64,000 nucleotides of DNA from assembly GCF_000015045.1 (NCBI RefSeq), contig NC_008609.1:1054001-1118000 (forward strand), in the 5' to 3' direction. The notes under the pieces are model-generated. The model was not told the origin of the DNA and ran no database searches. It saw only the letters and a program-made list of their open reading frames with translations. Origin of the DNA: Pelobacter propionicus DSM 2379. Lineage in GTDB: Bacteria; Desulfobacterota; Desulfuromonadia; Geobacterales; Pseudopelobacteraceae. A program made the position numbers and the translations under genes. This document shows, one piece after another, positions 11,306 through 42,018 of the stretch; positions within the stretch are counted from its first letter, which is position 1, and the number at the start of each line of letters is the position of its first letter.

Positions 11306-11320
11306 GTGATTTTTCCCAAC

Positions 11321-13181: not shown

Positions 13182-13192
13182 TTGATTTTGTT

Positions 13193-13269
<77 letters not shown>

Positions 13270-13283
13270 TTAAGTAGATACAC

Positions 13284-13312
13284 TTTATATCTCATCCGTT
13301 TTCTTCTGTCAA
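13284..13312 (-). promoter_or_regulatory. Sigma-70 promoter of tRNA-fMet
   Basis: On the minus strand TTGACA (13312-13307) and TATAAA (13289-13284) are separated by 17 bases, a near-perfect consensus. The tRNA starts 15 bases after the -10 box, so transcription probably begins close to its 5' end. Confidence 0.85.
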
Positions 13313-13346
13313 CAACTTAATTGCGCTCTTTACGATTTGTTGTCGG

Positions 13347-14168: not shown

Positions 14169-14178
14169 GGGAGCTCCG

Positions 14179-15870
14179 TTACATCCGCTCGGGGGCCGAG
14201 ATTCCCAGGATGGAGAGGGCATTATTCAGCGTCTGTGCCGTGCGCTTGAGCAGGTACAGACGTGCTCCGGTCAGGTCGCTGTTTTCGGTGAGCACCCGGT
14301 TCCTGTTGTAGAAGCTGTGAAAGCTGGCCGCCAGATCGGTCAGGTAGTTGGTCAGGCGGTGCGGCTCGAAGAAGCGGGCGCTGTCGTCCACGGTGTTGGG
14401 CAGGGCGGCCAGCAGCTTGATCAACTGCAACTCCTCCGTGCTCTCCAGCAACTCCAGGCGAACGGATCCCGCATCAGTTGGCAGGGCATACCCCTTCTCC
14501 ACGGCGTTCTCGAAGATGCTGCAGATGCGCGCATGGGCATACTGGACATAGTACACCGGGTTGTCGGGCGACTGCTCCTTGGCCAGGTCGATGTCGAAGA
14601 CAAGCTGGGAGTCCGGCTTGCGCATGATGAAGAAGAAGCGGGTGGCGTCGCGGCCGACCTCGTCGATCAGGTCGCGCAGGGTCACGTAACTGCCGGCGCG
14701 CTTGGAGATCTTGACCTCCTCTCCGCCGCGCATGACCGTGACCATCTGGTGCAGGACGTATTCCGGCCATCCCTGGGGGATACCGCGGTCCAGCGCCTGC
14801 AGGCCGGCCCGCACACGGGTGATGGTGCTGTGGTGGTCGGAACCCTGTTCGTTGATGACCCTGGTGAATCCCCGTTCCCACTTGGCCAGATGGTAGGCCA
14901 CGTCCGGCACGAAGTAGGTGTAGCCACCGTCGCTCTTGCGCATGACCCGGTCCTTGTCGTCGCCGAATTCGGTGGTGCGCAGCCAGAGGGCTCCCTCCTG
15001 CTCGTAGGTGTGTCCCTTCTCCACGAGTTGGCGCACCACGTTATCCACGCGGCCGTCGTCGTACAGGCTGGACTCAAGGGTGAAGACGTCGAAATGTACG
15101 CCGAAGGCCTTCAGATCCAGGTCCTGCTCCCGCCGCAGGCTGGCCACGGCGAATTCGCGGATGGCGTCCAGGTTCTGGGGATCTCCAAGGGCGGTGACGT
15201 GCCGGTCATCGGCATCAACCGTCTCCCGTGCCAGATAGGCGGCAGCCACGTCCCTGATGTACTCGCCCTGATATCCGTCGGCAGGCCAGCGCGGATCGTT
15301 CGTGTCAATGCCCAGGCAGCGCGCCTGTACCGACAGGGCTAGGTTGGTGATCTGCTGTCCGGCATCGTTGTAATAGAACTCCCGGGTGACATTCCAGCCG
15401 GCGGCGTCCAGCAGGCGGCAGATGGTGTCGCCGATGGCTGCGCCGCGGCCGTGTCCGATATGCAGCGGTCCGGTCGGGTTGGCGCTGACAAACTCCACCT
15501 GAACCTTTCTCTCCTCGCCGGTGGCGGTCCGACCGTAGGTCGCCCCCTGGGACTCGATCTCAGGAAGGAGCCGCTGCCAGGCTGCCGGAGAGACGAAGAA
15601 GTTGATGAAGCCCGGGCCTGCGATATCGGTTTTCGACAAGAGTCCCTTTCCGTCGCCCAGGTGGCGGCTGATGGTTTCAGCCACCTGGCGCGGCGCCCTG
15701 CGTTCAGCCTTTGCCATCTGCATGGCGATGTTGCAGGAGTAGTCTCCGTGGTCCGGGTTGGCTGGTACGCCGATGGTGACGGCGGGAATGGAGGGGGAAG
15801 TGATTTCCTGGGCAGCGGAGGCGGCCCGCAGGGCGGTTTCTACCAGAGAGGCTATTCGGTGACGCATCAT
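14179..15870 (-). CDS. argS: Arginyl-tRNA synthetase
   Basis: The 563-residue class I synthetase charges tRNA-Arg in the cytoplasm. It has the N-terminal Add1 domain, the HIGH motif in [15 protein letters not shown] (about residues 130-144), the KMSKS-like [12 protein letters not shown] (about 380) and a C-terminal DALR anticodon-binding domain. Length is as usual. Its ATG overlaps the stop of the small Cys-rich gene by 4 bases (ATGA), which suggests coupled translation. The downstream SPOR gene probably shares the mRNA. Confidence 0.97.
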
Positions 15871-16037
15871 GTGTGGTGACGTTCCTTCGTGTCGGTTGGT
15901 GTATCGGTCTCTTTCCCGTCCCCCTTGATGCTCACATCGCGGGAAAAATCAGGGCAGTGCGTTCCGCAGTCAGTGACGGTGAAACGCTTGTTGCAGGTCT
16001 CTCGCCAGGCGCATACGGCACAATTTGACTGGGACAT
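15867..16037 (-). CDS. Small Cys-rich protein (56 residues)
   Basis: A short frame starts at ATG 16037 with GGTTACC-like sequence upstream. It begins [19 protein letters not shown] and continues to [11 protein letters not shown], giving five or six Cys in a spacing that suggests an iron-sulfur cluster or zinc site. It lies between ftsB (12 bases upstream) and argS (4-base overlap), and this position supports it as a real gene. I know no function for it; related short Cys-rich proteins seem usual beside argS in Geobacter-like genomes, but this is memory and unchecked. Confidence 0.7.
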
Positions 16038-19611: not shown

Positions 19612-19673
19612 ATGAAGACATGAACAGCGAAACCGTCTATGAGACGTTTTTTAAACATGTTGCCGTACTTTGA
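19612..19673 (+). promoter_or_regulatory. Leader mini-ORFs with terminator-like hairpin
   Basis: A perfect SD AGGAGG (19601-19606) precedes a three-codon ORF (19612-19623). It is overlapped by ATGA with a 17-codon ORF (19620-19673) that reads across a small hairpin CGTCT-ATG-AGACG followed by six T (19634-19652). The layout resembles a translation-coupled attenuator before acoA. The stem is only 5 bp, so its strength is uncertain. Confidence 0.4.
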
Positions 19674-19680
19674 AGGATTT

Positions 19681-21687
19681 GAAAGGAGAAGCTATGACGT
19701 CCCAGTTGAAGAAGGAAGATCTGCTCAGGGCATACCGGACCATGAGGGAGATCCGCGAGTTTGAAGACCGCCTGCACATCGAGTTTGCCACGGGCAAGAT
19801 TCCGGGGTTTGTGCACCTGTACTCGGGCGAGGAGGCTGTTGCCACGGGCGTGTGCATGCACCTGACCGATGAGGACCGCATTTCCAGCACCCATCGCGGC
19901 CATGGCCACTGCATTGCCAAGGGTGTGGACATCCACGGCATGATGGCCGAGATCTACGGCAAGAAGACCGGCACCTGCGGCGGCAAGGGTGGTTCCATGC
20001 ACATCGCCGACCTGGAGAAGGGGATGATGGGCGCCAACGGCATCGTGGGCGCCGGGCCTCCGCTGATCTGCGGCGCGGCCCTGGCAGCCAAGTTCAAGGG
20101 TAATGGCGGGGTGGGTGTTGCTTTTTTCGGTGACGGCGCCTCCAATCAGGGGACCATCCTGGAGAGTATGAACCTGGCCTCGGTATGGAAGCTGCCGGTG
20201 ATCTTCCTGAACGAGAACAACGGCTACGCCGAGTCAACCGGCGTCTCCTACAACGTTCCGACCCCCAACATAGCCGACCGCGCCGCCGGTTTCGGCATGC
20301 CGGGCGTCACCGTGGACGGCAACGACTTCTTCGCCGTGTACGAGGCTGCCGGCGAGGCGATCCGCCGGGCCCGGGCGGGCGAGGGGCCGACGCTTCTGGA
20401 GTGCAAGACCCAGCGTTACTTCGGCCACTTCGAAGGTGACGCCATGACCTACCGTCCCAACGGAGAGAGCCAGAACCTGCGCAAGACGAAAGACTGCCTG
20501 AAGATCTTTGCCGAGAAGGCCATTGCCGCCGGCCTGGTTACTGCCGCGGAACTGGAAGCCATTGACAAGGAAGTTCTGGCCCTGATCGAAGACTCCGTGG
20601 TCAAGGCTCTGGCTGCGCCCAAACCAACGGCGGCGGATCTTCTGACCGGCGTCTACGTATCGTACTAGAGAGCGGAAAGGAACCGATATATGTCGAGAAA
20701 ACTCAATTATAAAGATGCGATCAACGAGGCTCTGTCCCAGGAAATGGCGCGTGACGAGAAGGTCATCGTCATTGGTCTGGACGTTGCCGGCGGCCGGGGA
20801 ACCCAGGGAGTCATGGATGCCTGGGGTGGTGTTCTGGGGGTAACCAAGGGACTGTACGCGAAATACGGGGATCGTGTCATGGACACCCCCATCTCCGAAT
20901 CCGCCTACATCGGCTCCGCCGTGGGCGCCGCCGCCTGCGGCATGCGTCCGGTGGTGGAGATGATGTTCGCCGACTTCCTGGGGGTCTGTTTCGACCAGCT
21001 GATGAACCAGGCGGCCAAATTCCGCTACATGTTCGGCGGCACGGCCGAGACGCCGGTTGTCTGTCGCATGATGTACGGCGGCGGTTTCCGTGGCGCTGCC
21101 CAGCACTCCCAGTGCCTGTACTCCATCTTCGCCCACATCCCGGGACTGAAGGTCGTGCTTCCCTCCACGCCTGCCGAGGCCAAGGGTCTCCTGATTCAGT
21201 CCATCCGTGACAACGACCCGGTCATCTTCATGGAGCACAAGGCGCTGTACGCCATGAAGGGCGAGGTCCCCGAGGAGAGCTACACCATCCCCTTCGGCCA
21301 GGCCAACATCGTCCGGGAGGGCAAAGACGTGACCATCGTGGCGCTGGGCCGCATGGTGCACATGGCCACCCAGGCTGCGGCCTCCCTGGCCAAGGCCGGT
21401 ATCGAGTGTGAGGTGATCGACCCGCGCACCATCTCTCCGCTGGACACGGCCACGATCATCAAGAGTGTGGAGAAGACCGGCCGGCTGGTGGTGGTGGACG
21501 AATCCCACCCGCGCGCCAGCATGGCCGGCGACATCTCCTCGGTGGTTGCCCAGGAAGCCTTCGGCTCCCTGAAGGGAGCGATCAAGTTGGTGACCGCTCC
21601 GCACACTCCGGTACCGTTCAGCGATGTGCTGGAAGACCTCTACCTGCCCAATGCCGCAAAAATCGAGGCAGCGGTAAAGGCGATCAT
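19681..21687. repeat. 2007-bp direct repeat, copy 1 (acoA-acoB)
   Basis: Bases 19681-21687 are repeated at 23161-25167 with a constant offset of 3480. I found no difference in line-by-line reading. The repeat starts just before the acoA SD and ends three bases into the last difference at the acoB stop. Confidence 0.93.
19694..20668 (+). CDS. acoA: Acetoin dehydrogenase E1 alpha subunit, copy 1
   Basis: The 324-residue subunit of the thiamine-diphosphate-dependent E1 cleaves acetoin into acetaldehyde and an acetyl group passed to the E2 lipoate. The TPP motif is seen as GDGASNQG (residues 146-153) ending in NENN (173-176). The His-Arg-Gly-His-Gly (67-71) and GKGGSMH (97-103) segments are typical of E1 alpha. 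AGGAGA lies before the ATG; an in-frame start at 19670 is less likely. First structural gene after the sigma-54 promoter. Its DNA is repeated as copy 2. Confidence 0.95.
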   Translation: MTSQLKKEDLLRAYRTMREIREFEDRLHIEFATGKIPGFVHLYSGEEAVATGVCMHLTDEDRISSTHRGHGHCIAKGVDIHGMMAEIYGKKTGTCGGKGGSMHIADLEKGMMGANGIVGAGPPLICGAALAAKFKGNGGVGVAFFGDGASNQGTILESMNLASVWKLPVIFLNENNGYAESTGVSYNVPTPNIADRAAGFGMPGVTVDGNDFFAVYEAAGEAIRRARAGEGPTLLECKTQRYFGHFEGDAMTYRPNGESQNLRKTKDCLKIFAEKAIAAGLVTAAELEAIDKEVLALIEDSVVKALAAPKPTAADLLTGVYVSY

Positions 21688-21691
21688 CTGA
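20690..21691 (+). CDS. acoB: Acetoin dehydrogenase E1 beta subunit, copy 1
   Basis: The 333-residue E1 beta subunit pairs with AcoA in a heterotetramer and completes the TPP site. Family segments are NYKDAINEALSQEMARDEKV at the start, MDTPISESAYIGSAVGAA, MMFADF and, in the C-terminal domain, GRMVHMATQAA and VEKTGRLVVVDESHPRASMAGDI. It starts 21 bases after acoA with AAAGGAA upstream. Copy 1 ends in Ile-Ile-stop (TGA), copy 2 in Ile-Met-stop (TAG); otherwise the proteins are the same. Confidence 0.95.
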   Translation: MSRKLNYKDAINEALSQEMARDEKVIVIGLDVAGGRGTQGVMDAWGGVLGVTKGLYAKYGDRVMDTPISESAYIGSAVGAAACGMRPVVEMMFADFLGVCFDQLMNQAAKFRYMFGGTAETPVVCRMMYGGGFRGAAQHSQCLYSIFAHIPGLKVVLPSTPAEAKGLLIQSIRDNDPVIFMEHKALYAMKGEVPEESYTIPFGQANIVREGKDVTIVALGRMVHMATQAAASLAKAGIECEVIDPRTISPLDTATIIKSVEKTGRLVVVDESHPRASMAGDISSVVAQEAFGSLKGAIKLVTAPHTPVPFSDVLEDLYLPNAAKIEAAVKAII

Positions 21692-21744
21692 AAACATTCC
21701 AACGTCTTGATAGACACGATTCATAGGACAAGAAAGGTACGACA

Positions 21745-23124
21745 ATGACTGCATCAGTACAGGAATTAACCATGCCCAAATGGGGGCTGACCATGGAAGA
21801 GGGCACCCTGGCCAAGTGGCTGATCGACGAGGGAAGCCAGATCGAACCGGGGATGGCTATTGCCGAGGTGGAGACCGACAAGATCGTCAACGTGATGGAG
21901 GCGAACCAGAGCGGTGTCCTGGCCAAGCAGATAGCCGATGAAGGCGATGTGCTGCCGGTGGGCGCGCTGATTGGCGTTATCACCCAAGGGGATGCCGCGG
22001 AAAGTGCCATCGCCGATTTTATCGCCAATTTCGGCTCTGATGAGGAAGCAGCGCCAGCGGAAGAGTCTGCCTGCAGCGCAGCATCCGATGACATCTACTG
22101 CCTGACCATGCCCAAGTGGGGGCTGACCATGGAAGAGGGGACCCTGGTCAAGTGGTTGATCGATGAGGGAACCCAGATCGAGCTGGGCATGTCCATCGCC
22201 GAGGTGGAGACCGACAAGATCGTCAACGTGCTCGAAGCCACCCACGCCGGTATCCTGAGACGCAAGATCGCCGATGAAGGGGACGAACTCCCTGTTGGCG
22301 CTCTGCTGGGAGTGATCGCCGATGCGTCTGTTTCCGACCAGGCCATTGACGCCTTCCTCGCCGGCGGGGCAACGGAGACGGCAGCGGAAGATGCCTCGGT
22401 GCCGGCAGCCGAGGAACCGCAGGCTGAATCGGCAGCAGCGGGACAGATCCTGGACGGCTCGCTGCCGCTGGAGGGGATGCGCGCGGCCATATCCAAGACC
22501 GTGACCACCTCATGGACGACCATCCCGCACTATATGGTGACGGTGGCCATCGACATGGGCAGGGCGGAGGCGCTGAGCAGCGCCCAGAAACAGGCCGGTA
22601 AGCGGGTCTCCATCAACGACATGCTGATCAAGGCATCGGCCCTGGCAATCGGCAAGTACCCCCTGATCAACGCCGCCTTTAGCGGCAAGAACATCACGCT
22701 GCACGGAGACGTGAACGTCGCCATGGCCATCGGTCTGGAAGAAGGAGTGATCATGCCGGTGATCAGGGAATGCCAGAAGCTCCCGGTCCAGCAAATCGGC
22801 GAGAGGAGCCGCGAACTGGTGGCACTCGCCAAGGAGGGCAAGCTGGGCAGCGCCGAATTGAGCGGTGGGACCTTCGCCATATCCAACATGGGGATGCTGG
22901 GGGTGGAGGATTTTATCGCCATCGTGCCGCCCAACCTGTCCGCTATCCTGGCCGTCGGCATGGTCAAGGACGAGCCGGTGGTGCGCGACGGCCAGGTGGT
23001 TGCTGCCCGCATGATGAGGGTGACCGTTTCCGCCGACCACCGGGTGCATGACGGCGCCTATGCCGCCAAATTCCTCGGTGAACTGAAGGGCATACTGGAA
23101 GCGCCGGAGACGATCCTGGCCTGA
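21745..23124 (+). CDS. acoC: Acetoin dehydrogenase E2 (dihydrolipoamide acetyltransferase) with two lipoyl domains
   Basis: The 459-residue E2 moves the acetyl group from E1 to CoA. Two tandem lipoyl domains (about residues 8-80 and 119-192) each have the target Lys in VETDKIVNV (Lys46 and Lys158). They are highly similar at the DNA level, so one arose by internal duplication. The catalytic domain (about 235-459) ends with the active-site ADHRVHDG. Between them lies only an Ala/Glu-rich linker: I see no peripheral subunit-binding domain, which normally docks E1 or E3. The gene sits between the two acoAB copies. Confidence 0.93.
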   Translation: MTASVQELTMPKWGLTMEEGTLAKWLIDEGSQIEPGMAIAEVETDKIVNVMEANQSGVLAKQIADEGDVLPVGALIGVITQGDAAESAIADFIANFGSDEEAAPAEESACSAASDDIYCLTMPKWGLTMEEGTLVKWLIDEGTQIELGMSIAEVETDKIVNVLEATHAGILRRKIADEGDELPVGALLGVIADASVSDQAIDAFLAGGATETAAEDASVPAAEEPQAESAAAGQILDGSLPLEGMRAAISKTVTTSWTTIPHYMVTVAIDMGRAEALSSAQKQAGKRVSINDMLIKASALAIGKYPLINAAFSGKNITLHGDVNVAMAIGLEEGVIMPVIRECQKLPVQQIGERSRELVALAKEGKLGSAELSGGTFAISNMGMLGVEDFIAIVPPNLSAILAVGMVKDEPVVRDGQVVAARMMRVTVSADHRVHDGAYAAKFLGELKGILEAPETILA

Positions 23125-23160
23125 TAACGGGCCGGCACATGAATTGGATTACACGAAGTC

Positions 23161-25167
23161 GAAAGGAGAAGCTATGACGTCCCAGTTGAAGAAGGAAGAT
23201 CTGCTCAGGGCATACCGGACCATGAGGGAGATCCGCGAGTTTGAAGACCGCCTGCACATCGAGTTTGCCACGGGCAAGATTCCGGGGTTTGTGCACCTGT
23301 ACTCGGGCGAGGAGGCTGTTGCCACGGGCGTGTGCATGCACCTGACCGATGAGGACCGCATTTCCAGCACCCATCGCGGCCATGGCCACTGCATTGCCAA
23401 GGGTGTGGACATCCACGGCATGATGGCCGAGATCTACGGCAAGAAGACCGGCACCTGCGGCGGCAAGGGTGGTTCCATGCACATCGCCGACCTGGAGAAG
23501 GGGATGATGGGCGCCAACGGCATCGTGGGCGCCGGGCCTCCGCTGATCTGCGGCGCGGCCCTGGCAGCCAAGTTCAAGGGTAATGGCGGGGTGGGTGTTG
23601 CTTTTTTCGGTGACGGCGCCTCCAATCAGGGGACCATCCTGGAGAGTATGAACCTGGCCTCGGTATGGAAGCTGCCGGTGATCTTCCTGAACGAGAACAA
23701 CGGCTACGCCGAGTCAACCGGCGTCTCCTACAACGTTCCGACCCCCAACATAGCCGACCGCGCCGCCGGTTTCGGCATGCCGGGCGTCACCGTGGACGGC
23801 AACGACTTCTTCGCCGTGTACGAGGCTGCCGGCGAGGCGATCCGCCGGGCCCGGGCGGGCGAGGGGCCGACGCTTCTGGAGTGCAAGACCCAGCGTTACT
23901 TCGGCCACTTCGAAGGTGACGCCATGACCTACCGTCCCAACGGAGAGAGCCAGAACCTGCGCAAGACGAAAGACTGCCTGAAGATCTTTGCCGAGAAGGC
24001 CATTGCCGCCGGCCTGGTTACTGCCGCGGAACTGGAAGCCATTGACAAGGAAGTTCTGGCCCTGATCGAAGACTCCGTGGTCAAGGCTCTGGCTGCGCCC
24101 AAACCAACGGCGGCGGATCTTCTGACCGGCGTCTACGTATCGTACTAGAGAGCGGAAAGGAACCGATATATGTCGAGAAAACTCAATTATAAAGATGCGA
24201 TCAACGAGGCTCTGTCCCAGGAAATGGCGCGTGACGAGAAGGTCATCGTCATTGGTCTGGACGTTGCCGGCGGCCGGGGAACCCAGGGAGTCATGGATGC
24301 CTGGGGTGGTGTTCTGGGGGTAACCAAGGGACTGTACGCGAAATACGGGGATCGTGTCATGGACACCCCCATCTCCGAATCCGCCTACATCGGCTCCGCC
24401 GTGGGCGCCGCCGCCTGCGGCATGCGTCCGGTGGTGGAGATGATGTTCGCCGACTTCCTGGGGGTCTGTTTCGACCAGCTGATGAACCAGGCGGCCAAAT
24501 TCCGCTACATGTTCGGCGGCACGGCCGAGACGCCGGTTGTCTGTCGCATGATGTACGGCGGCGGTTTCCGTGGCGCTGCCCAGCACTCCCAGTGCCTGTA
24601 CTCCATCTTCGCCCACATCCCGGGACTGAAGGTCGTGCTTCCCTCCACGCCTGCCGAGGCCAAGGGTCTCCTGATTCAGTCCATCCGTGACAACGACCCG
24701 GTCATCTTCATGGAGCACAAGGCGCTGTACGCCATGAAGGGCGAGGTCCCCGAGGAGAGCTACACCATCCCCTTCGGCCAGGCCAACATCGTCCGGGAGG
24801 GCAAAGACGTGACCATCGTGGCGCTGGGCCGCATGGTGCACATGGCCACCCAGGCTGCGGCCTCCCTGGCCAAGGCCGGTATCGAGTGTGAGGTGATCGA
24901 CCCGCGCACCATCTCTCCGCTGGACACGGCCACGATCATCAAGAGTGTGGAGAAGACCGGCCGGCTGGTGGTGGTGGACGAATCCCACCCGCGCGCCAGC
25001 ATGGCCGGCGACATCTCCTCGGTGGTTGCCCAGGAAGCCTTCGGCTCCCTGAAGGGAGCGATCAAGTTGGTGACCGCTCCGCACACTCCGGTACCGTTCA
25101 GCGATGTGCTGGAAGACCTCTACCTGCCCAATGCCGCAAAAATCGAGGCAGCGGTAAAGGCGATCAT
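23161..25167. repeat. 2007-bp direct repeat, copy 2 (acoA-acoB)
   Basis: Second copy of the repeat at 19681-21687. The junction bases differ on both sides (T/C before, CTGA/GTAG after), which defines its limits. Only acoC and short spacers lie between the copies. Confidence 0.93.
23174..24148 (+). CDS. acoA: Acetoin dehydrogenase E1 alpha subunit, copy 2
   Basis: The encoded protein is identical to copy 1 (19694-20668), with the same TPP motif, RBS and downstream spacing to acoB. It begins 49 bases after acoC, without a promoter of its own that I can see, and is probably read from the upstream sigma-54 promoter. Two copies may raise E1 output relative to E2. Absence of any difference suggests a recent duplication or continued gene conversion. 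Confidence 0.95.
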   Translation: MTSQLKKEDLLRAYRTMREIREFEDRLHIEFATGKIPGFVHLYSGEEAVATGVCMHLTDEDRISSTHRGHGHCIAKGVDIHGMMAEIYGKKTGTCGGKGGSMHIADLEKGMMGANGIVGAGPPLICGAALAAKFKGNGGVGVAFFGDGASNQGTILESMNLASVWKLPVIFLNENNGYAESTGVSYNVPTPNIADRAAGFGMPGVTVDGNDFFAVYEAAGEAIRRARAGEGPTLLECKTQRYFGHFEGDAMTYRPNGESQNLRKTKDCLKIFAEKAIAAGLVTAAELEAIDKEVLALIEDSVVKALAAPKPTAADLLTGVYVSY

Positions 25168-25171
25168 GTAG
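24170..25171 (+). CDS. acoB: Acetoin dehydrogenase E1 beta subunit, copy 2
   Basis: The protein is identical to copy 1 except for the final residue (Met in place of Ile). The repeat breaks off three bases before the stop, and the gene is completed by flanking sequence (GTAG). A GC-rich hairpin follows within 10 bases, then lipA. Confidence 0.95.
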   Translation: MSRKLNYKDAINEALSQEMARDEKVIVIGLDVAGGRGTQGVMDAWGGVLGVTKGLYAKYGDRVMDTPISESAYIGSAVGAAACGMRPVVEMMFADFLGVCFDQLMNQAAKFRYMFGGTAETPVVCRMMYGGGFRGAAQHSQCLYSIFAHIPGLKVVLPSTPAEAKGLLIQSIRDNDPVIFMEHKALYAMKGEVPEESYTIPFGQANIVREGKDVTIVALGRMVHMATQAAASLAKAGIECEVIDPRTISPLDTATIIKSVEKTGRLVVVDESHPRASMAGDISSVVAQEAFGSLKGAIKLVTAPHTPVPFSDVLEDLYLPNAAKIEAAVKAIM

Positions 25172-25180
25172 ACGAAGGAT

Positions 25181-25224
25181 CCTCCGCGGCGGCATCCAGG
25201 GATGTGGGGGGGACGCCGCGGAGG
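25181..25224. repeat. GC-rich hairpin between acoB copy 2 and lipA
   Basis: CCTCCGCGGCG (25181-25191) pairs perfectly with CGCCGCGGAGG (25214-25224). There is no T-run, so it is not a simple terminator. It may mark an RNA processing or stability site between the acoAB and lipA parts of the mRNA. Confidence 0.6.
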
Positions 25225-25353
25225 TGTCATGGGTAAGCGTATGGATAACCGTTCTCCCACAGGGAGCCGCAACGCCCTGGCAGCTGCTTTGTTGCTTTGT
25301 GTGAGTCAATGGTTTCCATGTCAGCATGGGGGAAATTCGGGGAGATGATCTCT

Positions 25354-26298
25354 ATGGACGTACAACCAACAACGATGCGGGGAGCGGTGAAAACCGCCCA
25401 TCTGGGAACGGATGTATCCCTTGCCACCAAGCCGTTGCCCAAGCCGGAGTGGCTGCGGGGAAAATCGGCCAGCACGCCGGATGTGGAGAGGTTGGTGAGG
25501 ATCCTTCGGGACAACCGGCTGCACACGGTCTGCGAAGAGGCATCCTGCCCCAACCTGGGCGAATGCTTCCGCAAGGGGACCGCGACCTTCATGATCATGG
25601 GGGATGTGTGCACACGGCACTGCCCGTTCTGCAACGTGGCCCATGGCTCACCCCATGAGCTGGCGGCCGATGAGCCGGTCAATCTGGCCCGGGCCGTTGA
25701 ACTCTTGAAATTGAGCTACGTGGTCATCACCTCGGTGACCAGGGATGATCTCCCTGACGGTGGCGCCGGCCATTACGGAGCCTGTGTCCGGGCCCTGCGG
25801 GACCTGAAGCGGAGCCTGAAGGTTGAAATACTGACTCCCGATTTTCGCGGTGCTGTGGCCGTGGCATTCGAAGAGCTGCGCATGAATCTCCCCGATGTGT
25901 TCAACCATAACCTGGAAACGGTGCCGCGCCTGTACCCCAGGGTGCGCCCCCAGGCCGATTATCATGGCTCTTTGGATCTGTTGCTCCGCTTCAGGGAACA
26001 GTTCGATCATGTCCCCACCAAATCCGGGCTGATGCTTGGCCTGGGTGAAACGGAGCAGGAAGTGCGGGATGTCATGGAAGAACTGCGCCGCCACCGCTGC
26101 GACATGCTGACCCTGGGGCAGTACATGCGACCCAGTCCGCATCATCTGCCGGTGGAGCGCTACGTCACCCCCGACGAATTCGAGCGTTACCGGCAGTTCG
26201 GGCTCTCCATCGGCTTTTCCCATGTGGAATCAGGCCCCATGGTGCGCTCGTCCTACCATGCGGACATGCAGGCACGGGAACTTATGCTGGTAAACTGA
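25354..26298 (+). CDS. lipA: Lipoyl synthase
   Basis: The radical-SAM enzyme inserts two sulfurs into octanoyl groups on E2 lipoyl domains. It has the auxiliary cluster motif CEEASCPNLGEC, the radical-SAM CTRHCPFC and the C-terminal RSSYHAD whose Ser binds the auxiliary cluster. From the ATG at 25354 (GGGGAG upstream) it has 314 residues. Its place inside the aco operon fits demand for lipoylated AcoC. Confidence 0.96.
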   Translation: MDVQPTTMRGAVKTAHLGTDVSLATKPLPKPEWLRGKSASTPDVERLVRILRDNRLHTVCEEASCPNLGECFRKGTATFMIMGDVCTRHCPFCNVAHGSPHELAADEPVNLARAVELLKLSYVVITSVTRDDLPDGGAGHYGACVRALRDLKRSLKVEILTPDFRGAVAVAFEELRMNLPDVFNHNLETVPRLYPRVRPQADYHGSLDLLLRFREQFDHVPTKSGLMLGLGETEQEVRDVMEELRRHRCDMLTLGQYMRPSPHHLPVERYVTPDEFERYRQFGLSIGFSHVESGPMVRSSYHADMQARELMLVN

Positions 26299-26402
26299 TA
26301 GACACGAGGCTCGCGTGACGTTCACGTCATCCCCTCAGGGGGGGCAACAGGGCCGGGACGTTTGCGCGTGGCTTAAACCACGAAAAACAAGAGGTGCAAG
26401 GA

Positions 26403-27818
<1,416 letters not shown>

Positions 27819-34733: not shown

Positions 34734-36734
34734 TCAGAGCTCGTTGGGCGGAATGAGGTGGTATTTGCTCATCTTGCGGTACAGGGTGGAACGACTGACG
34801 CACAGCTCCCGCGAGGCATCGGTGATGTTCCACTTGTTCTTCTTCAGCGTTCGCAGCAGTTTCTCCCGTTCCTGGGCGTCCTGGGGAGGCAGGTCCGGCA
34901 GCAGTGAAGCCGGATCCTGTGCCGGAAGGGGCTCCGGGCTGGGGGCGGGCGCAGGCAGGGCTATGCCGGATGTCGGGGCTTTGAGCAGGTCAGGGGGCAG
35001 GTCCCTGGCATGAATGGTTTCACCCTCGCTGATGGCGATGGAGAAGCGCAGCGCATTGCGCAGTTGTCTGATGTTGCCCGGCCAGTCATAGGCGGCCAGG
35101 ATTTCCAGCGCCTCGGGGGCGAGGCCTGTTTCGACGCCCGGCTCGGCCTCGGCCGCCAGGGCGTTCTCGATCACCAGAGCCCTGTCCGTGCGCTCCCGCA
35201 GGGGGGGCAGTTTGATGGTGATGCCGTTCAGGCGGTAGTACAGGTCCTCCCGGAACTGTTTCTCGCGCACCAGCTCTTCCAGGTTCCTCAGGGTGGCGCA
35301 GATGATGTTGAGATCGACCTTGATGACCGATTCACTTCCCAGCGGCTGCACCTCCCGCTCCGCCAGCACCCGCAGCAGGCGCGTCTGCAGGTTGAAGGGC
35401 ATGTCGCCGATTTCGTCCAGAAACAGGGTGCCGCCGCTGGACTGCAGGATCTTGCCCCGCATCCCCTTGCTGTTGGCGCCGGTGAACGCGCCCTGCTTGT
35501 AGCCGAACAGCTCGCTCTCGATCAGCGACTCCGGAATGGAGGCGCAGTTCAGGGCCACGAACGGTTTGGAGGCCCTGTCACTGGCCTCGTGTATCGCCCG
35601 GGCAAAGACCTCCTTGCCGGTTCCGGTTTCTCCGATCAGGAGTATGGATATGTTCCTGTTCATCAGCCGTTTGGCGCAGTTCACGTTGTAGGCCATGCGC
35701 GGGTCGGTCCCGGCCAGGTAGTCCAGGGTGAAGTGGGGGGAAGGCTTGCTCCTGGTCTCTTTTTTGGGGGGCGAAAGGGGGCTCTTCTTCTCGGGCGCGC
35801 GGAAGGTGGCAAAGTACTGATATCCGGTATCCAGGAAGCGGATGGGAAGGATCGTTGTTGTCTTGTGGGTGGCATGCTCCACGAGCTCTTCCATGCGAAG
35901 ATCGAACACGGCACTGACGTGGCGGCCGATGGGGCTGGGGAGCTGCGGCCCCTGCAGCTGGGTCAGTGCGCTCTGGTTGGCGGCGATCACGTACCCCTCG
36001 TTGCTCACCGCCAGAAAACTCTCGGCCACTACCTCCACGAACGCCTTCATGCAGCTGAAGCGCACGATCCAGCAGTCCTTGTAGAGGCGCATGAAATAGG
36101 CGTTCTCGATCAGGCGGGCGGAATAGCTGAGCATCTGCAGGGCGAGTAGTTGCGAGTCCCGTGATTGCGGCGGATGGAGCTGGGATATGTCCAGTACGCC
36201 CAGCAGGGTTCCGTCGGGGAAGAAGAGCGGGGTGGTGGAACAGCTCAAGCCGATGTGGCGGGCGCGGAAATGCTCGTCGCGGTGGATGGTGATGGGCCGC
36301 TTTTCCTCGATGCAGGTTCCCACGCCGCAGGTGCCTTCCACGGATTCAGCCCAGAGCGAGCCCAGGTACAGACCAGCGTCACGATGCTCCTTCTCGGTGT
36401 CGGGGTTGCCCATGTAGTCGATGGTGACGCCGTTGGCGTCTCCCAGCAGGATCACGTAGCCGGCCGTGGCGATCTTCTCGTAGAGGCTCTTCATGCCGGA
36501 CTTGGCGATGAACAGGAACTCCTCCAGCGGTTCCTGGCACTCCTTCAGGGCGCTGCCGGTGATGATGCGGGGTTTGCTTTTTGATGAAGGGTCGATGCTG
36601 TAATCGTTGAAGCAGCGTTTCCACGAGCTGTGGATGACGGGGGCGGTAGTGTTGCTCCTGATTGAGGGCAGGTTGTTGGAATTGACCGAGCGGATGACAT
36701 CGCTGATATGGTTTTTCGTGTACGAGTTTGACAC
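34734..36734 (-). CDS. acoR: AcoR-like sigma-54-dependent activator
   Basis: The 666-residue enhancer-binding protein starts at GTG 36734 with AGGAGAGG upstream. It has an N-terminal GAF-type sensor (about 60-215), a PAS-like part (about 230-310), an AAA+ domain with GETGTGKE and the sigma-54 contact loop GAFTGA (about 430), and a C-terminal Fis-type helix-turn-helix (ITDASRELCVSRSTLYRKM). This order is that of AcoR, which responds to acetoin. It should act on the four sigma-54 promoters found in this window. Exact inducer is inferred. Confidence 0.85.
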   Translation of the reverse strand: MSNSYTKNHISDVIRSVNSNNLPSIRSNTTAPVIHSSWKRCFNDYSIDPSSKSKPRIITGSALKECQEPLEEFLFIAKSGMKSLYEKIATAGYVILLGDANGVTIDYMGNPDTEKEHRDAGLYLGSLWAESVEGTCGVGTCIEEKRPITIHRDEHFRARHIGLSCSTTPLFFPDGTLLGVLDISQLHPPQSRDSQLLALQMLSYSARLIENAYFMRLYKDCWIVRFSCMKAFVEVVAESFLAVSNEGYVIAANQSALTQLQGPQLPSPIGRHVSAVFDLRMEELVEHATHKTTTILPIRFLDTGYQYFATFRAPEKKSPLSPPKKETRSKPSPHFTLDYLAGTDPRMAYNVNCAKRLMNRNISILLIGETGTGKEVFARAIHEASDRASKPFVALNCASIPESLIESELFGYKQGAFTGANSKGMRGKILQSSGGTLFLDEIGDMPFNLQTRLLRVLAEREVQPLGSESVIKVDLNIICATLRNLEELVREKQFREDLYYRLNGITIKLPPLRERTDRALVIENALAAEAEPGVETGLAPEALEILAAYDWPGNIRQLRNALRFSIAISEGETIHARDLPPDLLKAPTSGIALPAPAPSPEPLPAQDPASLLPDLPPQDAQEREKLLRTLKKNKWNITDASRELCVSRSTLYRKMSKYHLIPPNEL

Positions 36735-37038
36735 CGTTCCTCTCCTGACATGACAACCGAATTGAGAGTGACACTTTGTATCGGTGAATCACTTTCATCG
36801 TCTTCACTACGGGCGGTTAGTCCCGGTACTTCTCAGCATGATCGCAAGAAAACATAGCACTTTCCCTGTGGAATGAACAGCGCTGATTGTGCGTTGCCGG
36901 ACATGCTTTCTGGTCTGTCTCCGGCAGGCGTGGGCGGCTGCCGACAGACTGGTGATATGGGTGGCCCAGATGCCGCATTCAACGCTCCAGCCGGCAGTTG
37001 GAGCCGCACAAAGCCCAGCTCCAACTGCCGCGTCCAGG
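36735..37038. other. Region upstream of the activator gene, with a strong hairpin
   Basis: About 300 bases without a gene. CGGCAGTTGGAGC (36992-37004) pairs over 13 bases with GCTCCAACTGCCG (37018-37030), just after the end of the DUF6506-like gene. It probably separates the butanediol operon from the activator gene. No clear promoter is recognised. Confidence 0.55.
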
Positions 37039-37341
37039 TTAGAACAACTCGTCTCCGCTCTTGAATTCCAGGCCGGGGTGGTTATCGAAGCGAACCACGC
37101 CCACCGCTGCCTTGCCGTTGACGGCACGCTTGACCAGGGCGGTGCCCTCGATGCCGAACCCCCCGCACAATTCGATGGCCACGAAACCATCCCGCACCAG
37201 TTCCTGGGCGACCTGTGCGGCTGCCTGATAGTCCTTGACGCCGACTGTCGCCAGGGTGACCTGCGCTGTTTCGATAAGGGTCCGGTGCTGTGCCGGGTCT
37301 GCTTCCGGTGCCACGAATATGAATGCTGCCTTCAGTGCCAT
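37039..37341 (-). CDS. DUF6506-like small protein
   Basis: From the ATG at 37341 (GGGAGG upstream) the protein has 100 residues. It begins MALKAAFIFVAPEADPAQHR, then has GVKDYQAAAQVAQELV and a conserved-looking AIELCGGFGIEG, and ends GVVRFDNHPGLEFKSGDELF. I associate this with the DUF6506 group, function unknown. The soluble alpha/beta character and single Cys in CGGFG suggest a ligand-binding or enzyme role. It is the last gene of the butanediol row. Confidence 0.65.
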   Translation of the reverse strand: MALKAAFIFVAPEADPAQHRTLIETAQVTLATVGVKDYQAAAQVAQELVRDGFVAIELCGGFGIEGTALVKRAVNGKAAVGVVRFDNHPGLEFKSGDELF

Positions 37342-37415
37342 CTGTATGACCTCCCTGTTACGTGGTTGAACAAAGTGCGGGTAGGGATGCATTGCCATGC
37401 GTCTCTACCCGGTTG

Positions 37416-37910
37416 TCAGGGGTTGGGGTATACCGCAACCGGTTCGGGCCACTTGAAATCGGGTGTCAGCTTGTAGATCTCGGCGATGACTCCCAGGTCC
37501 TTGCGCGAATCAAGATAGGTGTAGGTCATGCCCTCCCAGGTGCCTCCCTGCAGAATCGGAAGCCCCCTGTCCTGGTAAAACTGGACGGTCTTCTCGTAGT
37601 TTTCCGTGTCGAAGGCCACGTGATGCAGCCCCTCACCATTTTCCTTCAGGAATTGGGCATAGATGCTGATGTCATCCTTGGGTTCGATGAGTTCCCACTG
37701 CACTCCGCCGATGTCGGCCAAAGCAAGGCGCATTGAGTACTGGACCGGCTTTCCCTCTATGATCATATTGCTGACCGTGCTCGGGTTGAACTCATAGATC
37801 GACCAGGGGCCGATACCGTACTGGTCGGCATACTTCCTTACGGTGGCGTCGCAGTCCTTCACCACCAGGCCTATCTGCATGATCTTGGTAAAAATAGGTT
37901 TCTCAGGCAT
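37416..37910 (-). CDS. VOC (glyoxalase/bleomycin-resistance fold) protein
   Basis: The 164-residue protein starts at ATG 37910 with a strong GAGGAGG. It resembles methylmalonyl-CoA epimerase and related VOC proteins: IMQIGLVVKDCDATVRKY, then EGLHHVAFDTENYEKTVQFY and IAEIYK. The second His and the C-terminal Glu ligands are present, but the first metal ligand (normally His before Ile-Gly) is Gln. Metal binding may be altered. It probably acts on a small oxygenated compound of the pathway. Confidence 0.8.
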   Translation of the reverse strand: MPEKPIFTKIMQIGLVVKDCDATVRKYADQYGIGPWSIYEFNPSTVSNMIIEGKPVQYSMRLALADIGGVQWELIEPKDDISIYAQFLKENGEGLHHVAFDTENYEKTVQFYQDRGLPILQGGTWEGMTYTYLDSRKDLGVIAEIYKLTPDFKWPEPVAVYPNP

Positions 37911-37956
37911 TGCATGCCTCCTCATTAGTTGTGAAACCAGATTGTTGCGCCAGTAG

Positions 37957-39102
37957 TCACTGTTTTTTATTTAGACCGTAACAGCCGAAATAGCAGACGA
38001 ATATCAGCAGGACCGTGTTCAGAAGGTCGACCCAGGTCAGGGGGTCGCCACCGAATCCGGGAACGATCTCGGCCTCATGCAGCACATTGACGGCGAAACC
38101 TCTCATGTAGATAACGAATGCGCCAATTCCCAGGCCCCAGGTGATGATGAACCTGATGATGCGGTTCATGGCCGGGCTCAGGGAGGTCGGGGCGTTTCCG
38201 CAGCAGAGCGCCCAGAAGAGCAGGATGTTGACGATCCAGACTCCCAGTTGGGCCGGCCAGAGGTTGATGGCCGGGCCGATTTTCTCCAGGGCGTCGGCCG
38301 GTATCAGGACGTTCTTCAGCAGGGCCAACAGAATGAAGTAGAGAACGGTACCCAACGCGAAGTTGCCGAAGAAGGCGGCCAGTGCCCTTCCGGCGCGAGT
38401 CTTGAAGGAGCTGTACGGCCAGAGATCGAGCACCAGGACTGTCGTCAGCCAGACGGTAATGACCGAATAGAACCAGCCGACCGCGGTGGGAAGTGGCATG
38501 ACCACCCTGTCCGGCGCGGTCCAGCTTGCCATGCAGGGGTAGACCAGGACGATGTAGCCGACAAAGGTCAGGAAAAAACCGGTGAAGAGTTGTGCTACAC
38601 CAACCATGGGTTGCTTCAGGCCGGCATCGGTCCACGGCCAGCCGTCCATGCTGTTTGCCACTATGCCGAACCCGTAGAAGCCGATCAGGACGATCATGCC
38701 GGATGCGCCGTGCCCGGCGAAGTTTGTTGCGCTGAAGGCGGGATCCATCTGGCCGTAGCCGAAGATCAGCAGCATGGGGATGGCGAAGCCCAGCACCAGC
38801 GTCACCACCGTTGCCAGGATGCCTCCACCGGGTTGACTCATGCTGCTGAAGCCGTGCATGCCGAAGTTGAAGCCGATGAAGACGAGGACCATGATGGCCC
38901 AGAACAGATAGGCGCCGAAGGGTTGCGGATAGAATTTCCAGACCCCCACCTGCGGATCGGCGAACAGTATCCATACGCCGTAGCTGATGACCTGATAAAT
39001 GATGAAACAGGCGATTGCAAACCCGACCGCGCCCACCTGCAAGCCGAAGGGCTTTGCACTCACTACGCTGCTGTCGCCGGTTGCGTCAATTGAATGTGCC
39101 AT
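37957..39102 (-). CDS. Multi-pass membrane protein of unknown family
   Basis: The 381-residue protein from ATG 39102 has about nine or ten hydrophobic segments, for example FAIACFIIYQVISYGVWILF, LFWAIMVLVFIGFNFG, and a C-terminal LLNTVLLIFVCYFG. Loops carry His, Trp and Asp-rich motifs (GMHGFSSMSQPGGG, SMDGWPWTD). I recognise no transporter family. Between a butanediol dehydrogenase and a VOC protein in a sigma-54 operon, it may carry or sense butanediol/acetoin or form part of a membrane enzyme. Confidence 0.75.
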   Translation of the reverse strand: MAHSIDATGDSSVVSAKPFGLQVGAVGFAIACFIIYQVISYGVWILFADPQVGVWKFYPQPFGAYLFWAIMVLVFIGFNFGMHGFSSMSQPGGGILATVVTLVLGFAIPMLLIFGYGQMDPAFSATNFAGHGASGMIVLIGFYGFGIVANSMDGWPWTDAGLKQPMVGVAQLFTGFFLTFVGYIVLVYPCMASWTAPDRVVMPLPTAVGWFYSVITVWLTTVLVLDLWPYSSFKTRAGRALAAFFGNFALGTVLYFILLALLKNVLIPADALEKIGPAINLWPAQLGVWIVNILLFWALCCGNAPTSLSPAMNRIIRFIITWGLGIGAFVIYMRGFAVNVLHEAEIVPGFGGDPLTWVDLLNTVLLIFVCYFGCYGLNKKQ

Positions 39103-39243
39103 AAACATCTCCTCTTTTAGCTCTCAAAGCCGTTTTTATACTGCTTGGCTAGTGCTCCCCGTTTATCTGGCACCGAAGTGCGGAACGAAAAAGGGGAGGG
39201 GAGAGAACTCCCCTCCCCTTTGGGTGTCGAATCTGTTAGGGGC

Positions 39244-40305
39244 CTATGTCGGGCTGACGATGATCTTGATGTGGGCATCCTTGTTGTTAACCAATTCTTC
39301 GAACCCTTTGTCCACGATGTCGTCCAGCGAGATTTTGCCGGTGATCATCGGTTCGGCCTTGATCTTGCCGCTTGCCAGCAGCTTGGCTACGCCGGCGAAG
39401 TCATCGATGGTGTAGGCCAGGGTGCCGATGACGACCTTGTCGGTGGCGCTCAGGCTGAAGAAGTTGAAAGAGCTGGGCTCTTCGAAGATGCCGACGATAA
39501 CCGCCTTGCCGCAGTTGTGCAGTACGTCGATGGCCTGGGGGCCGGTGAATTTGTTGCCGATGCATTCGAAGGAGACGTCGGCGCCGGTGCCTTCGGGGCT
39601 CAGCCGCTTGACCTCCGCGACCACATCGCATTCCTTGGGGTCGAGGATGATGTCTGCGCCGCATTCCTTGGCCAGTTTCTTGCGTGCGGCGGACATTTCC
39701 ACCACGATTATCTGGGCTGCGCCCGAGGCCTTGACGCACATCAGGGTGCCCAGACCGATGGTGCCGGCTCCGAAGACGACGACGGTGGCGCCCATCAGGG
39801 AACCGGCCAGGCGTACGGCCTTGAAGCCGGTGGCCAGCGGTTCGATGACCGCGCCCGCCTGGGGGTCGAAGTTGGGGGGCAGGACGTAGCAGAGTTCGGC
39901 CGGCACATTGACGTACTCGGCAAAGGCGCCATCGGCCATCAGGCCGGTGAAGGCCAGTTTTTCGCAGACATTGTAGTTGCCCATGCGGCAGGGGAGGCAT
40001 TCGCCGCAGTGCTGGCAGGCATCGGGCGCCACCAGGTCGCCGACCTTGACGTTGTTTACGCCGGCGCCCACTGCCACGACCGTGCCGGTGAATTCATGGC
40101 CGAGGATCAGCGGGGCCTTGGCTCCGGTCAGCGGGTGGTTCTCGGTGGGTATGAAGATCGGACCGGCCAGGTACTCATGCAGGTCGGAACCGCAGATGCC
40201 GAACCAGGCGACTTTGATCTTGACTTCACCCGCCTTGGGGGCGGCCGGTTCGGGAACGTTTTCAACTCGAATGTCTTTCTTTGCATACCATTTTGCAGCT
40301 TTCAT
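39244..40305 (-). CDS. bdhA: 2,3-butanediol dehydrogenase (zinc-type MDR family)
   Basis: The 353-residue enzyme starts at ATG 40305 with GGAGAG upstream. Its opening AAKWYAKKDIRVENVPEP and the EYLAGPIFIPTENHPLTG segment are like (R,R)-butanediol dehydrogenases. Catalytic zinc ligands lie in GICGSDLHEY and LGHEFTG; structural zinc Cys are in CQHCGECLPC...C. The NAD-binding site is FGAGTIGLG. It should convert butanediol to acetoin, the substrate of the aco complex. Confidence 0.88.
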   Translation of the reverse strand: MKAAKWYAKKDIRVENVPEPAAPKAGEVKIKVAWFGICGSDLHEYLAGPIFIPTENHPLTGAKAPLILGHEFTGTVVAVGAGVNNVKVGDLVAPDACQHCGECLPCRMGNYNVCEKLAFTGLMADGAFAEYVNVPAELCYVLPPNFDPQAGAVIEPLATGFKAVRLAGSLMGATVVVFGAGTIGLGTLMCVKASGAAQIIVVEMSAARKKLAKECGADIILDPKECDVVAEVKRLSPEGTGADVSFECIGNKFTGPQAIDVLHNCGKAVIVGIFEEPSSFNFFSLSATDKVVIGTLAYTIDDFAGVAKLLASGKIKAEPMITGKISLDDIVDKGFEELVNNKDAHIKIIVSPT

Positions 40306-40410
40306 TCGTACTCTCCTTGGTAGTGAATAGGTCATCGCATAAGCGCGCTGCCTGTGAAACCTGACTGCTCGGTTTGTCCGGCCATCGTGGCGATGGTCGG
40401 ACCATGGGCG

Positions 40411-41307
40411 TTAGAATGACCAGATGGCCCTGAACATGCCTGCCTTGGTCTTGGTGGTGTTTTTTCCGGTGATACCCTGCTCGTACCAGGCGGCAAAGGA
40501 GAGCCGCTTGGTGATCTGGAACTGGTTGCCGACGCCGTAGGCCAGTTCGTTGTTGCTATGGACGACGATGTCCCCGGTATCCTTGTCCGTGCTGTTGCCC
40601 GTGGACTGGTAGTCCAGCTTGACGAACGGTTCCACCTGATTCATGAACTTGTAGGCGAATACCAGGTTGGCGAAGACCGTATCCTTCTGTTTCCTGTGCT
40701 CGCCGCCATGTTTGTAGTCGCCGCGGACTTTGTATCCGACGTCGCCGTCGAAGGTGAAGTTGCCCAGGACGTAGTTGGTCATGAAGGTGAAGTCATGATC
40801 CCAGGAGTGGGCGGAAAGCTCGTTATCGCCGAAGGGGATGTGCATCCAGTATTCCAGGCAGGTGACCCAGTTCTTGGTCGGCTTGGTCCAGACCACCAGA
40901 CCGGTCTGGGGGTCGAGCATGCCGCTCACGCTGTTGTCGTCTTTCATCGTGGCGTTTGCGTAACCCGCCACAGCCTCCCAGAGGAAGCCGACGTTGTCAA
41001 TGCCGTCGATCTTGAAGATGTGGGCCAGCTTGTTGACCGTCGCCACGGTGTTGCGGACGGAACTGTGGCCGTTGGTGTCCTTGCCCTTGAAGCCCTGGCT
41101 GTCGTCCCGGAAGAAGTTGTAGGAGAGCAGAAGGGTCTGCCCATTTTCCGGAATGTCGTCACCCACCGGCAACTGGTATTCGTGGGGGGCGATGACGACG
41201 TAGGGGATGCCGCCCGCCTCGGCCATCTTCGTGGCGGCGGACAGACAGATGGCTGAAAGCGATACAACAGCGATACCAAGGGAAAACTTTTTGAGGATAA
41301 AACGCAT
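40411..41307 (-). CDS. Outer-membrane transporter-like protein (phenol MetA-type family)
   Basis: From ATG 41307 (GGAGG upstream) the product has 298 residues with a signal peptide (FSLGIAVVSLSAICLSAATK). The rest alternates in short beta strands and ends in Phe (GMFRAIWSF), as expected for an outer-membrane barrel. Segments such as EAVAGYANATM, TCLEYWMHIPFGD and LSFAAWYEQGITGK fit the Phenol_MetA_deg family. It probably lets a small hydrophilic or aromatic-like substrate cross the outer membrane. First gene of the sigma-54 row. Confidence 0.75.
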   Translation of the reverse strand: MRFILKKFSLGIAVVSLSAICLSAATKMAEAGGIPYVVIAPHEYQLPVGDDIPENGQTLLLSYNFFRDDSQGFKGKDTNGHSSVRNTVATVNKLAHIFKIDGIDNVGFLWEAVAGYANATMKDDNSVSGMLDPQTGLVVWTKPTKNWVTCLEYWMHIPFGDNELSAHSWDHDFTFMTNYVLGNFTFDGDVGYKVRGDYKHGGEHRKQKDTVFANLVFAYKFMNQVEPFVKLDYQSTGNSTDKDTGDIVVHSNNELAYGVGNQFQITKRLSFAAWYEQGITGKNTTKTKAGMFRAIWSF

Positions 41308-41641
41308 AGAAGAACCTCCATGGTGTGTAGTGTGTCGTCTGGACGGGATGCTGATGCTGACTGGTTGCCCTGCTGTGATGCTCACTGGCCGGTCGGACAG
41401 CCTCCTGATCACCGGTGACGGTCGTTCCCGCGACAGGGGAAAGAGTCCCTTGCGCTTCATCATGTACGCTCCTTTGGGTCTGATTGTTCCATCGCCTGAT
41501 GGATCGGGGCACGGTTCCGTTCATGCGCCCAGGGGGGGAGGTGAGGGAAGTCGCGCCGCCCGTTATCAGGAGATTGGTGACAGACTGTTGATTGCTGTGT
41601 GTCCTGTTCTTTTGTAAAACGACTTTTTGGATTTGGGTAAG

Positions 41642-41657
41642 AGCAACACGTGTACCA
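41642..41657 (-). promoter_or_regulatory. Sigma-54 promoter of the butanediol row
   Basis: On the minus strand TGGTAC-ACGTG-TTGCT has GG and GC 10 bases apart and a perfect -12 box. Transcription should start near 41630, upstream of both possible starts of the porin gene. Confidence 0.75.
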
Positions 41658-41800
41658 AGGGAGGTCGCTGTTTTTGTTGTGGTTCTGCAAGATGTTGTAA
41701 TACTGTCCGATTTTTTTTTACTGCCGGGGGATTGATGGTGGGGCTGGCGCCCGGGGATCGATGTAACGCTGTGCCCGGGCCGGGATCGTGGGTGCGGCCT

Positions 41801-42018
41801 GCAACACCTGTCTCAGGGGGGCGTGGTTTACTAGAATGTGGTTTTGCTTTTTGTCGGTTCCAGGGATGCGGTTTTCGTGGGTCGATGCCGTTGGCCGGGA
41901 GGCGGTATCGCGGCTCAGGCGGTTCCGGGGGCGGAAAAAAGCGGTTTTCCGTCGGCTCTGTTGCGGAATGGAACAGTGTCTGGCCGGATTGATGCACCTG
42001 TATCGCAACAGGTGTTGC
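41801..42018. promoter_or_regulatory. Activator-type dyads upstream of the butanediol promoter
   Basis: GCAACA-CC-TGTCTC lies at 41801-41814, about 145 bases before the promoter. A perfect palindrome GCAACA-GG-TGTTGC lies at 42005-42018, with an adjoining weaker copy at 41991-42004. They share the form seen before acoA and thiC. Only the two listed spots within this span are meant. Confidence 0.6.

Follow-up and report, generated by a model that had tools for sequence, protein, structure and literature searches.

The acoR-acoABC-bdh operons of Pseudomonas, Ralstonia and Bacillus encode an AcoR-type sigma-54 activator, a 2,3-butanediol dehydrogenase of the medium-chain dehydrogenase/reductase (MDR) type and acetoin dehydrogenase. 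A larger cluster, comprising 28 genes around Pcar_0330-0351, was described in Pelobacter carbinolicus and is mostly upregulated on acetoin (PMC3543383). The same study suggested that the membrane protein Pcar_0329 is a carrier of acetoin and 2,3-butanediol, with a DUF190 protein as its modulator; we treat this transport role as a proposal from the literature rather than a result. We analyzed a 64,000-nucleotide stretch of Pelobacter propionicus DSM 2379 (contig NC_008609.1, positions 1,054,001 to 1,118,000; hereafter the window), which carries an operon for a porin-like outer-membrane protein, an MDR-type 2,3-butanediol dehydrogenase (BDH), a polytopic inner-membrane protein (MP), a VOC protein and a DUF6506 protein, together with an AcoR-like activator gene. 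With moderate confidence, we interpret this locus as a sigma-54/AcoR-controlled operon that serves to take up 2,3-butanediol, and also acetoin, and to carry out the first oxidation step.

The five genes are co-directional on the minus strand and the activator gene adjoins them, as the original prediction had described. Its remarks on strong Shine-Dalgarno sequences and small gaps were also borne out: GGAG or GGAGG precedes all starts, and the intergenic gaps, in the order from porin to DUF6506, are 105, 141, 46 and 74 bp. The best PDB match of BDH is (R,R)-butanediol dehydrogenase (6ie0; 262 bits, 5.8e-77), and BDH homologues within related operons are 74-83% identical. The corresponding identities are 41-56% for the porin and 61-68% for the activator, which keeps the same position in close operons and contains the Pfam domains PF00158 (Sigma54_activat), PF01590 (GAF) and PF02954 (HTH_8). 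Judged by gene content, the BDH of the window corresponds to Ppro_1043, described as Bdh alongside AcoABCABL (Ppro_1024-1029) in PMC2669807; the BDH assignment is therefore not new. The aco genes are located ∼10 kb from the operon, with transketolase-type E1 domains of equal score at 20.7 and 24.2 kb. Within this cluster, acoA and acoB are doubled in tandem (19670-25171) and encode near-identical proteins on either side of acoC, the arrangement written as AcoABCABL in PMC2669807. A short-chain dehydrogenase/reductase (SDR) of the P. propionicus genome is encoded at 3.41 Mb, outside the operon.

A single sigma-54 promoter had been postulated ahead of these genes, and its motif indicates that it is real. 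The -24/-12 element is located 350 bp upstream of the porin ATG and scores 12.6 of 17.4 bits, an approximate value from an approximate matrix, and none of 300 shuffled sequences reached the same score. Recurrence of the motif, which does not depend on the matrix, gives the same indication, as TGGTAY-N5-TTGC was found upstream of most homologous operons. Coordinates of all features are collected in Table 1.

Table 1. Features of the butanediol operon and its surroundings in the window (positions are those of the window).
Feature	Position	Strand	Details
Porin-like outer-membrane protein	40411..41307	-	298 aa; signal peptide start MRFILKKFSLG; PF13557 Phenol_MetA_deg 80.6 bits vs cut-off 22
BDH, MDR-type 2,3-butanediol dehydrogenase	39244..40305	-	353 aa; ADH_N/ADH_zinc_N; PDB 6ie0
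MP, polytopic inner-membrane protein	37957..39102	-	381 aa; 10 hydrophobic segments; uncatalogued family
VOC protein	37416..37910	-	164 aa; Glyoxalase_4 59 bits vs cut-off 27
DUF6506 protein	37039..37341	-	100 aa; PF20116 128.5 bits vs gathering cut-off 27
AcoR-like sigma-54 dependent activator	34734..36734	-	666 aa; GAF, AAA+, Fis-type HTH
Sigma-54 type -24/-12 promoter TGGTACACGTGTTGCT	41642..41657	-	TGGTAC-N5-TTGCT motif
GC-rich hairpin then TTTTT, BDH-MP gap	39197..39219	-	scan for terminator-like sites and fold
aco cluster acoABC-acoAB with lipoyl synthase-like and dihydrolipoamide dehydrogenase genes	19670..27818	+	ORFs, E1 domains

The genes form a conserved module, which occurs in about 18 Desulfuromonadia genomes. 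In a survey of 277 genomes of this class, MP was found in 8 genomes, VOC in 18 (and weakly in one more) and DUF6506 in 22. VOC and DUF6506 occur together in 17 genomes (p 8e-22; the co-occurrence p-values are inflated by kinship among the genomes), and in 16 of these 17 they are separated by 37-202 bp, so that the refuting case named in the original prediction, separate occurrence of the three genes in most genomes, did not arise. All eight MP genomes possess DUF6506, and seven of them possess VOC. Most operon maps combine the porin, BDH, a membrane gene, VOC, DUF6506 and the activator, with an SDR (acetoin reductase), ABM, USP and a small unknown protein as optional members. A genome scan for MP identified six Desulfuromonadia loci at 75-82% identity and Burkholderiales loci at ∼53%; among the 97 nearest genomes, MP is present only in the window's own.

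The predicted unit of MP, VOC and DUF6506 is not fixed, and an obligate trio was rejected: VOC and DUF6506 are paired with an unrelated membrane protein in 9-10 genomes, and one genome (G590) has MP and DUF6506 without VOC. The broader suggestion of a module for the uptake and oxidation of a small diol was upheld in part. The MDR-type BDH, the AcoR-like activator, the aco genes and the exchange of membrane proteins favor it, whereas MP turned out to be dispensable to the module.

In the genomes where MP is missing, its slot is occupied by MP2, a 329-aa membrane protein that is accompanied by a DUF190 (PII-like) partner. MP fills the slot in 8 genomes and MP2 with DUF190 in 9-10, and both were never found in one operon; a more distant MP2 paralogue is encoded elsewhere in the genome in two MP genomes. 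The sole relative of the window's genus (G001) has MP2, and in G588, presumably P. carbinolicus, MP2, a match to Pcar_0329, immediately precedes BDH. Homology of MP to the Pcar_0329-type MP2 was rejected (hhalign probability 0.2%, 16 columns only). The main argument for the function of MP is that these unrelated proteins exchange in one operon slot, thus MP may do the job of MP2. MP would then be best read as a new permease family whose substrates are small neutral C4 alcohols. MP2 itself has no Pfam or NCBIfam family; it comes with the DUF190 protein (for example, L103 4743-6233 and L098 6921-11037), which was not seen beside MP.

The original prediction had counted 9-10 helices in MP and placed it in no known family. 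We counted 10 hydrophobic segments, and searches of Pfam, NCBIfam and PDB gave no match, with no catalogued transporter family at cut-off and DUF1218 as the best Pfam model (12.8 bits vs 25.3). PDB sequence searches with MP, the MP profile, MP2 and a remotely related ∼430-aa family returned nothing meaningful, and no MP relatives were found in viral contigs. The AlphaFold2 model of MP, built from 9 sequences, is unusable (pLDDT 43), also for a fold search. Linkers of the W-P-x..QP type connect the hairpin helices of MP.

The ∼430-aa family, from Desulfobacterota, is homologous to MP (hhalign probability 97.8%, E 7.9e-13, 250 columns). Both share the W-P..QP hairpin repeat, whereas the ∼430-aa proteins, at ∼30% local identity, carry an extra hairpin and a His-rich C-terminal part. 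In this family, a two-helix hairpin with a linker of the W-P-x(5)-L-x-QP-x2-G type is repeated (units 1-2 and 1-3 at 89-92%), and units 1 and 2 of MP match its corresponding and third units, while the MP2 controls remain below 1%. An internal repeat across the whole of MP was rejected, its signals being confined to the first three hairpins and arising mostly via the ∼430-aa family. The neighbours also differ: MP is found next to BDH, whereas the ∼430-aa proteins are found next to CoA ligases, thiolase or mutase. These include an AMP-forming acyl-CoA synthetase in 4 of 10 cases, a thiolase or acyl-CoA dehydrogenase in 2 of 10, and a split methylmalonyl-CoA-type mutase in 2 of 10, one of them also with the synthetase. 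Two such loci (L032 3621-6860 and L036 10256-13655) contain the large and B12-binding subunits of a split mutase and a further gene beside the ∼430-aa relatives, and these sets resemble isobutyryl- or 2-hydroxyisobutyryl-CoA mutase sets.

The lack of a matching transporter family, together with the many conserved His, Trp and Asp residues (HHYFDD) of the ∼430-aa relatives and the location of MP relatives beside CoA ligases and mutases, would agree with MP being a membrane enzyme, or an electron-transfer or quinone-linked component, that acts on the diol or its product in the membrane. We consider this unlikely, as the 381-aa MP family lacks an invariant histidine, CxxC or other cofactor-binding pattern. 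Moreover, filling of the slot by an unrelated membrane protein with DUF190 suits transporters or channels better than enzymes. The membrane reaction on the diol that had been offered as an alternative in the original prediction gained no positive evidence.

The metal positions of the VOC protein, mapped by alignment to solved methylmalonyl-CoA epimerases, are Q12, E73, H97 and E144. E73, H97 and E144 are conserved in 21 of 21 relatives and Q12 in 20, the other one having Glu. Human glyoxalase I binds its metal through Q33, E99, H126 and E172, and moves a proton beside a carbonyl via an enediolate. The Q/E/H/E set is thus alike in the two proteins, and since racemisation of acetoin needs enediolate chemistry, the VOC protein would suit this reaction. 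On these sequence features, we propose it as a good candidate for acetoin racemase, an orphan enzyme (EC 5.1.2.4). This activity has been postulated (PMC4709696), and no gene for it is named in the papers found, which represent only part of the literature. How the acetoin enantiomers might be converted into one another by way of meso-butanediol, with an MDR and an SDR enzyme acting as a pair, is discussed in PMC3543383. Each complete operon map has VOC, the 2,3-butanediol SDR or both, a distribution that is consistent with VOC providing a second route of acetoin interconversion.

Alternatively, the VOC protein could act on a CoA ester, for example by epimerising 3-hydroxybutanoyl-CoA from an accidental condensation, as for Pcar_0333 in PMC3543383. 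Methylmalonyl-CoA epimerases are similar to it in sequence, share its Glyoxalase_4 domain and have their ligands at aligned positions, and acyl-CoA enzymes are present in the P. carbinolicus cluster. However, the first two ligands are the Gln and Glu of glyoxalase I rather than the His and Gln of the epimerases (H/Q/H/E), and the surrounding operon handles a free diol, so we regard action on a CoA ester as quite improbable. The VOC protein was specifically rejected as the methylmalonyl-CoA epimerase of this genome, scoring 42.9 bits against the TIGR03081 cut-off of 114.95, with two true epimerases encoded elsewhere.

The DUF6506-like label of the original prediction was confirmed as true membership in PF20116 (Table 1). 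An AlphaFold2 model (pLDDT 88.5) predicts a small alpha/beta (Rossmann-like) domain, and the protein contains two conserved motifs, E57-L-C59-x-G-F-G (ELCxGFG) and R84-F-D86-x-H88-P-G (VRFDxHPGL). A fold search, which does not exclude families absent from its listing, gave only common Rossmann-like arrangements, none of which points to a function, with no Foldseek match at E <= 0.001 and VIA Z <= 6.8. As DUF6506 is kept in the G590 operon without VOC, it does not have to act together with VOC.

Outside Desulfuromonadia, MP was found in several gene contexts. A Burkholderiales locus (L147) has four consecutive genes, for an AcoR-like activator, an SDR, a BDH that is 63% identical to that of the window, and MP. 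L148 shows this order again with a decayed MP, and a Paraburkholderia plasmid carries the activator, acetoin reductase, a frameshifted MP and a BDH at 38%. At the sites of the frameshifted or decayed MP (L022 12001-13027 on the Paraburkholderia plasmid; L148 9502-9919 in a related genome), the adjoining BDH and SDR genes are intact. On the Methylibium PM1 plasmid, MP precedes the 2-hydroxyisobutyryl-CoA mutase genes by ∼13 kb and a Rieske gene by ∼28 kb, with insertion sequence (IS) elements and other genes intervening; by its order in the gene table of PMC4517660, this Rieske gene corresponds to the tert-butanol hydroxylase gene. In another genome (G848, locus L146), MP is ∼1.6 kb from the 79%-identical Rieske gene and the reductase that belongs to it, with genes for a B12-binding mutase subunit and a CoA ligase at the same place. 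Finally, in L031, a locus of a Burkholderiaceae metagenome-assembled genome, MP is split by a frame break, with an alcohol dehydrogenase on one side and, on the other, a microcompartment locus that includes an aldehyde dehydrogenase. That locus (11185-16037) encodes bacterial microcompartment shell proteins, an acetaldehyde-dehydrogenase-like enzyme and a malate/lactate dehydrogenase-like protein that is extended at its N terminus. Near MP in Methylibium-type genomes (L021, L028, L031 and L146) we also observed a conserved set of unknown ∼415-, 152- and 149-aa proteins with a MarR-like regulator; the 149-aa protein is annotated as a PEP-utilizing enzyme, and no Pfam or NCBIfam family matches the 415-aa protein.

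Judging from the neighbouring genes, small uncharged alcohols or diols are the common denominator of these MP contexts. A bolder proposal, which we advance only tentatively and at low probability, is that MP represents a new permease superfamily that consists of recurring two-helix hairpins and transports small uncharged C4 alcohols and hydroxyketones (2,3-butanediol and acetoin in Desulfuromonadia and Burkholderiales, diols of the tert-butanol pathway in Methylibium-type bacteria), and that VOC is the first acetoin racemase gene. The same contexts can be read in another way, with the operon serving a different small alcohol or diol, such as ethanol, 1,2-propanediol or a branched C4 diol. MP relatives in or near the tert-butanol/2-hydroxyisobutyrate island, the L031 MP next to the aldehyde-dehydrogenase microcompartment locus and the frequent promiscuity of MDR enzymes point in this direction. 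Yet the closest solved relative of BDH is (R,R)-BDH, the aco genes and the AcoR-like activator adjoin BDH, and MP recurs beside BDH and the 2,3-butanediol SDR in Burkholderiales; a different substrate thus appears rather doubtful.

The hairpin in the gap between BDH and MP folds with a 14-bp stem and was the top terminator-like site of the scan. Nine further operons that have a gap between BDH and the membrane gene were folded, and all nine show a hairpin at the matching place. The stem sequences vary and the pairing is kept, the T-run occurring only in the window's copy. The hairpin is a candidate partial terminator or mRNA-processing stem, and since it recurs in all nine other folded operons, the first and second halves of the operon probably differ in expression. 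The hairpin after bdhA was seen in L023, L024, L027, L029, L101 and L103-L106, whichever membrane gene comes next.

In the proposed butanediol and acetoin pathway, the porin would pass the substrate through the outer membrane, and MP, as a 10-helix permease, would move the neutral C4 diol or acetoin across the inner membrane. BDH would oxidise R-configured hydroxyls to yield acetoin, whose (R)- and (S)-forms the VOC metalloenzyme may interconvert via an enediolate, and acetoin dehydrogenase, encoded 10 kb away, would then consume both. The DUF6506 protein could be a small alpha/beta accessory protein or an enzyme of the VOC step, and the activator presumably senses acetoin or a related inducer.

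Several points weigh against this scheme. Neutral C4 alcohols cross membranes unaided, thus a permease may be unnecessary. A published model of these bacteria likewise assumes free diffusion (PMC3022650). The low-confidence structure model means that the fold of MP offers no support, and the BDH-MP hairpin suggests that the halves of the operon are not expressed as one even unit. VOC can be functionally replaced by the paired MDR and SDR dehydrogenases, VOC and SDR are present together in several operons, and VOC relatives elsewhere are located near unrelated catabolic genes. On plasmids, VOC and DUF6506 relatives occur among mixed genes, which does not fix the substrate. That MP protects the membrane or exports alcohol or acetoin (tolerance, product exit) is the least likely explanation: the hosts do handle solvent-like alcohols (butanediol, tert-butanol) and direction cannot be read from sequence, but the MP gene belongs to catabolic operons that follow a sigma-54 promoter and also encode an outer-membrane porin and dehydrogenases.

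Uptake of small neutral alcohols is usually assumed to be protein-free, and a permease family for butanediol and tert-butanol, if true, would change that view and would matter for butanediol production and for the bioremediation of fuel oxygenates. For decades an acetoin racemase has been postulated, and the operon offers a concrete candidate that is easy to assay. Two unrelated membrane proteins that replace each other in one slot also provide a clean genetic test, in which one should complement the other.

The operon of the window resembles the acoR-acoABC-bdh operons of Pseudomonas, Ralstonia and Bacillus in possessing the components of an AcoR/sigma-54 butanediol operon, namely an MDR-type BDH, an activator of AcoR architecture with a -24/-12 promoter, and aco genes in the cluster. 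We know of no porin, MP, VOC or DUF6506 gene in the clusters of those three genera. Earlier publications cover BDH and the aco genes, and also suggest a transporter for this slot in P. carbinolicus. In the papers searched, which cover only part of the literature, we found no mention of the MP family, its exchange with MP2, its link with tert-butanol genes or a racemase role for VOC, and no induction data for the operon of the window. A close counterpart is the P. carbinolicus cluster (PMC3543383), which shares with it the MDR-type BDH, VOC (Pcar_0333), DUF6506 and the AcoR-like activator, as well as a membrane protein next to BDH, nearby aco and thi genes and the -24/-12 motif. The two differ in gene order and in the membrane protein itself, Pcar_0329 having no relationship to MP and being accompanied by a DUF190 protein.

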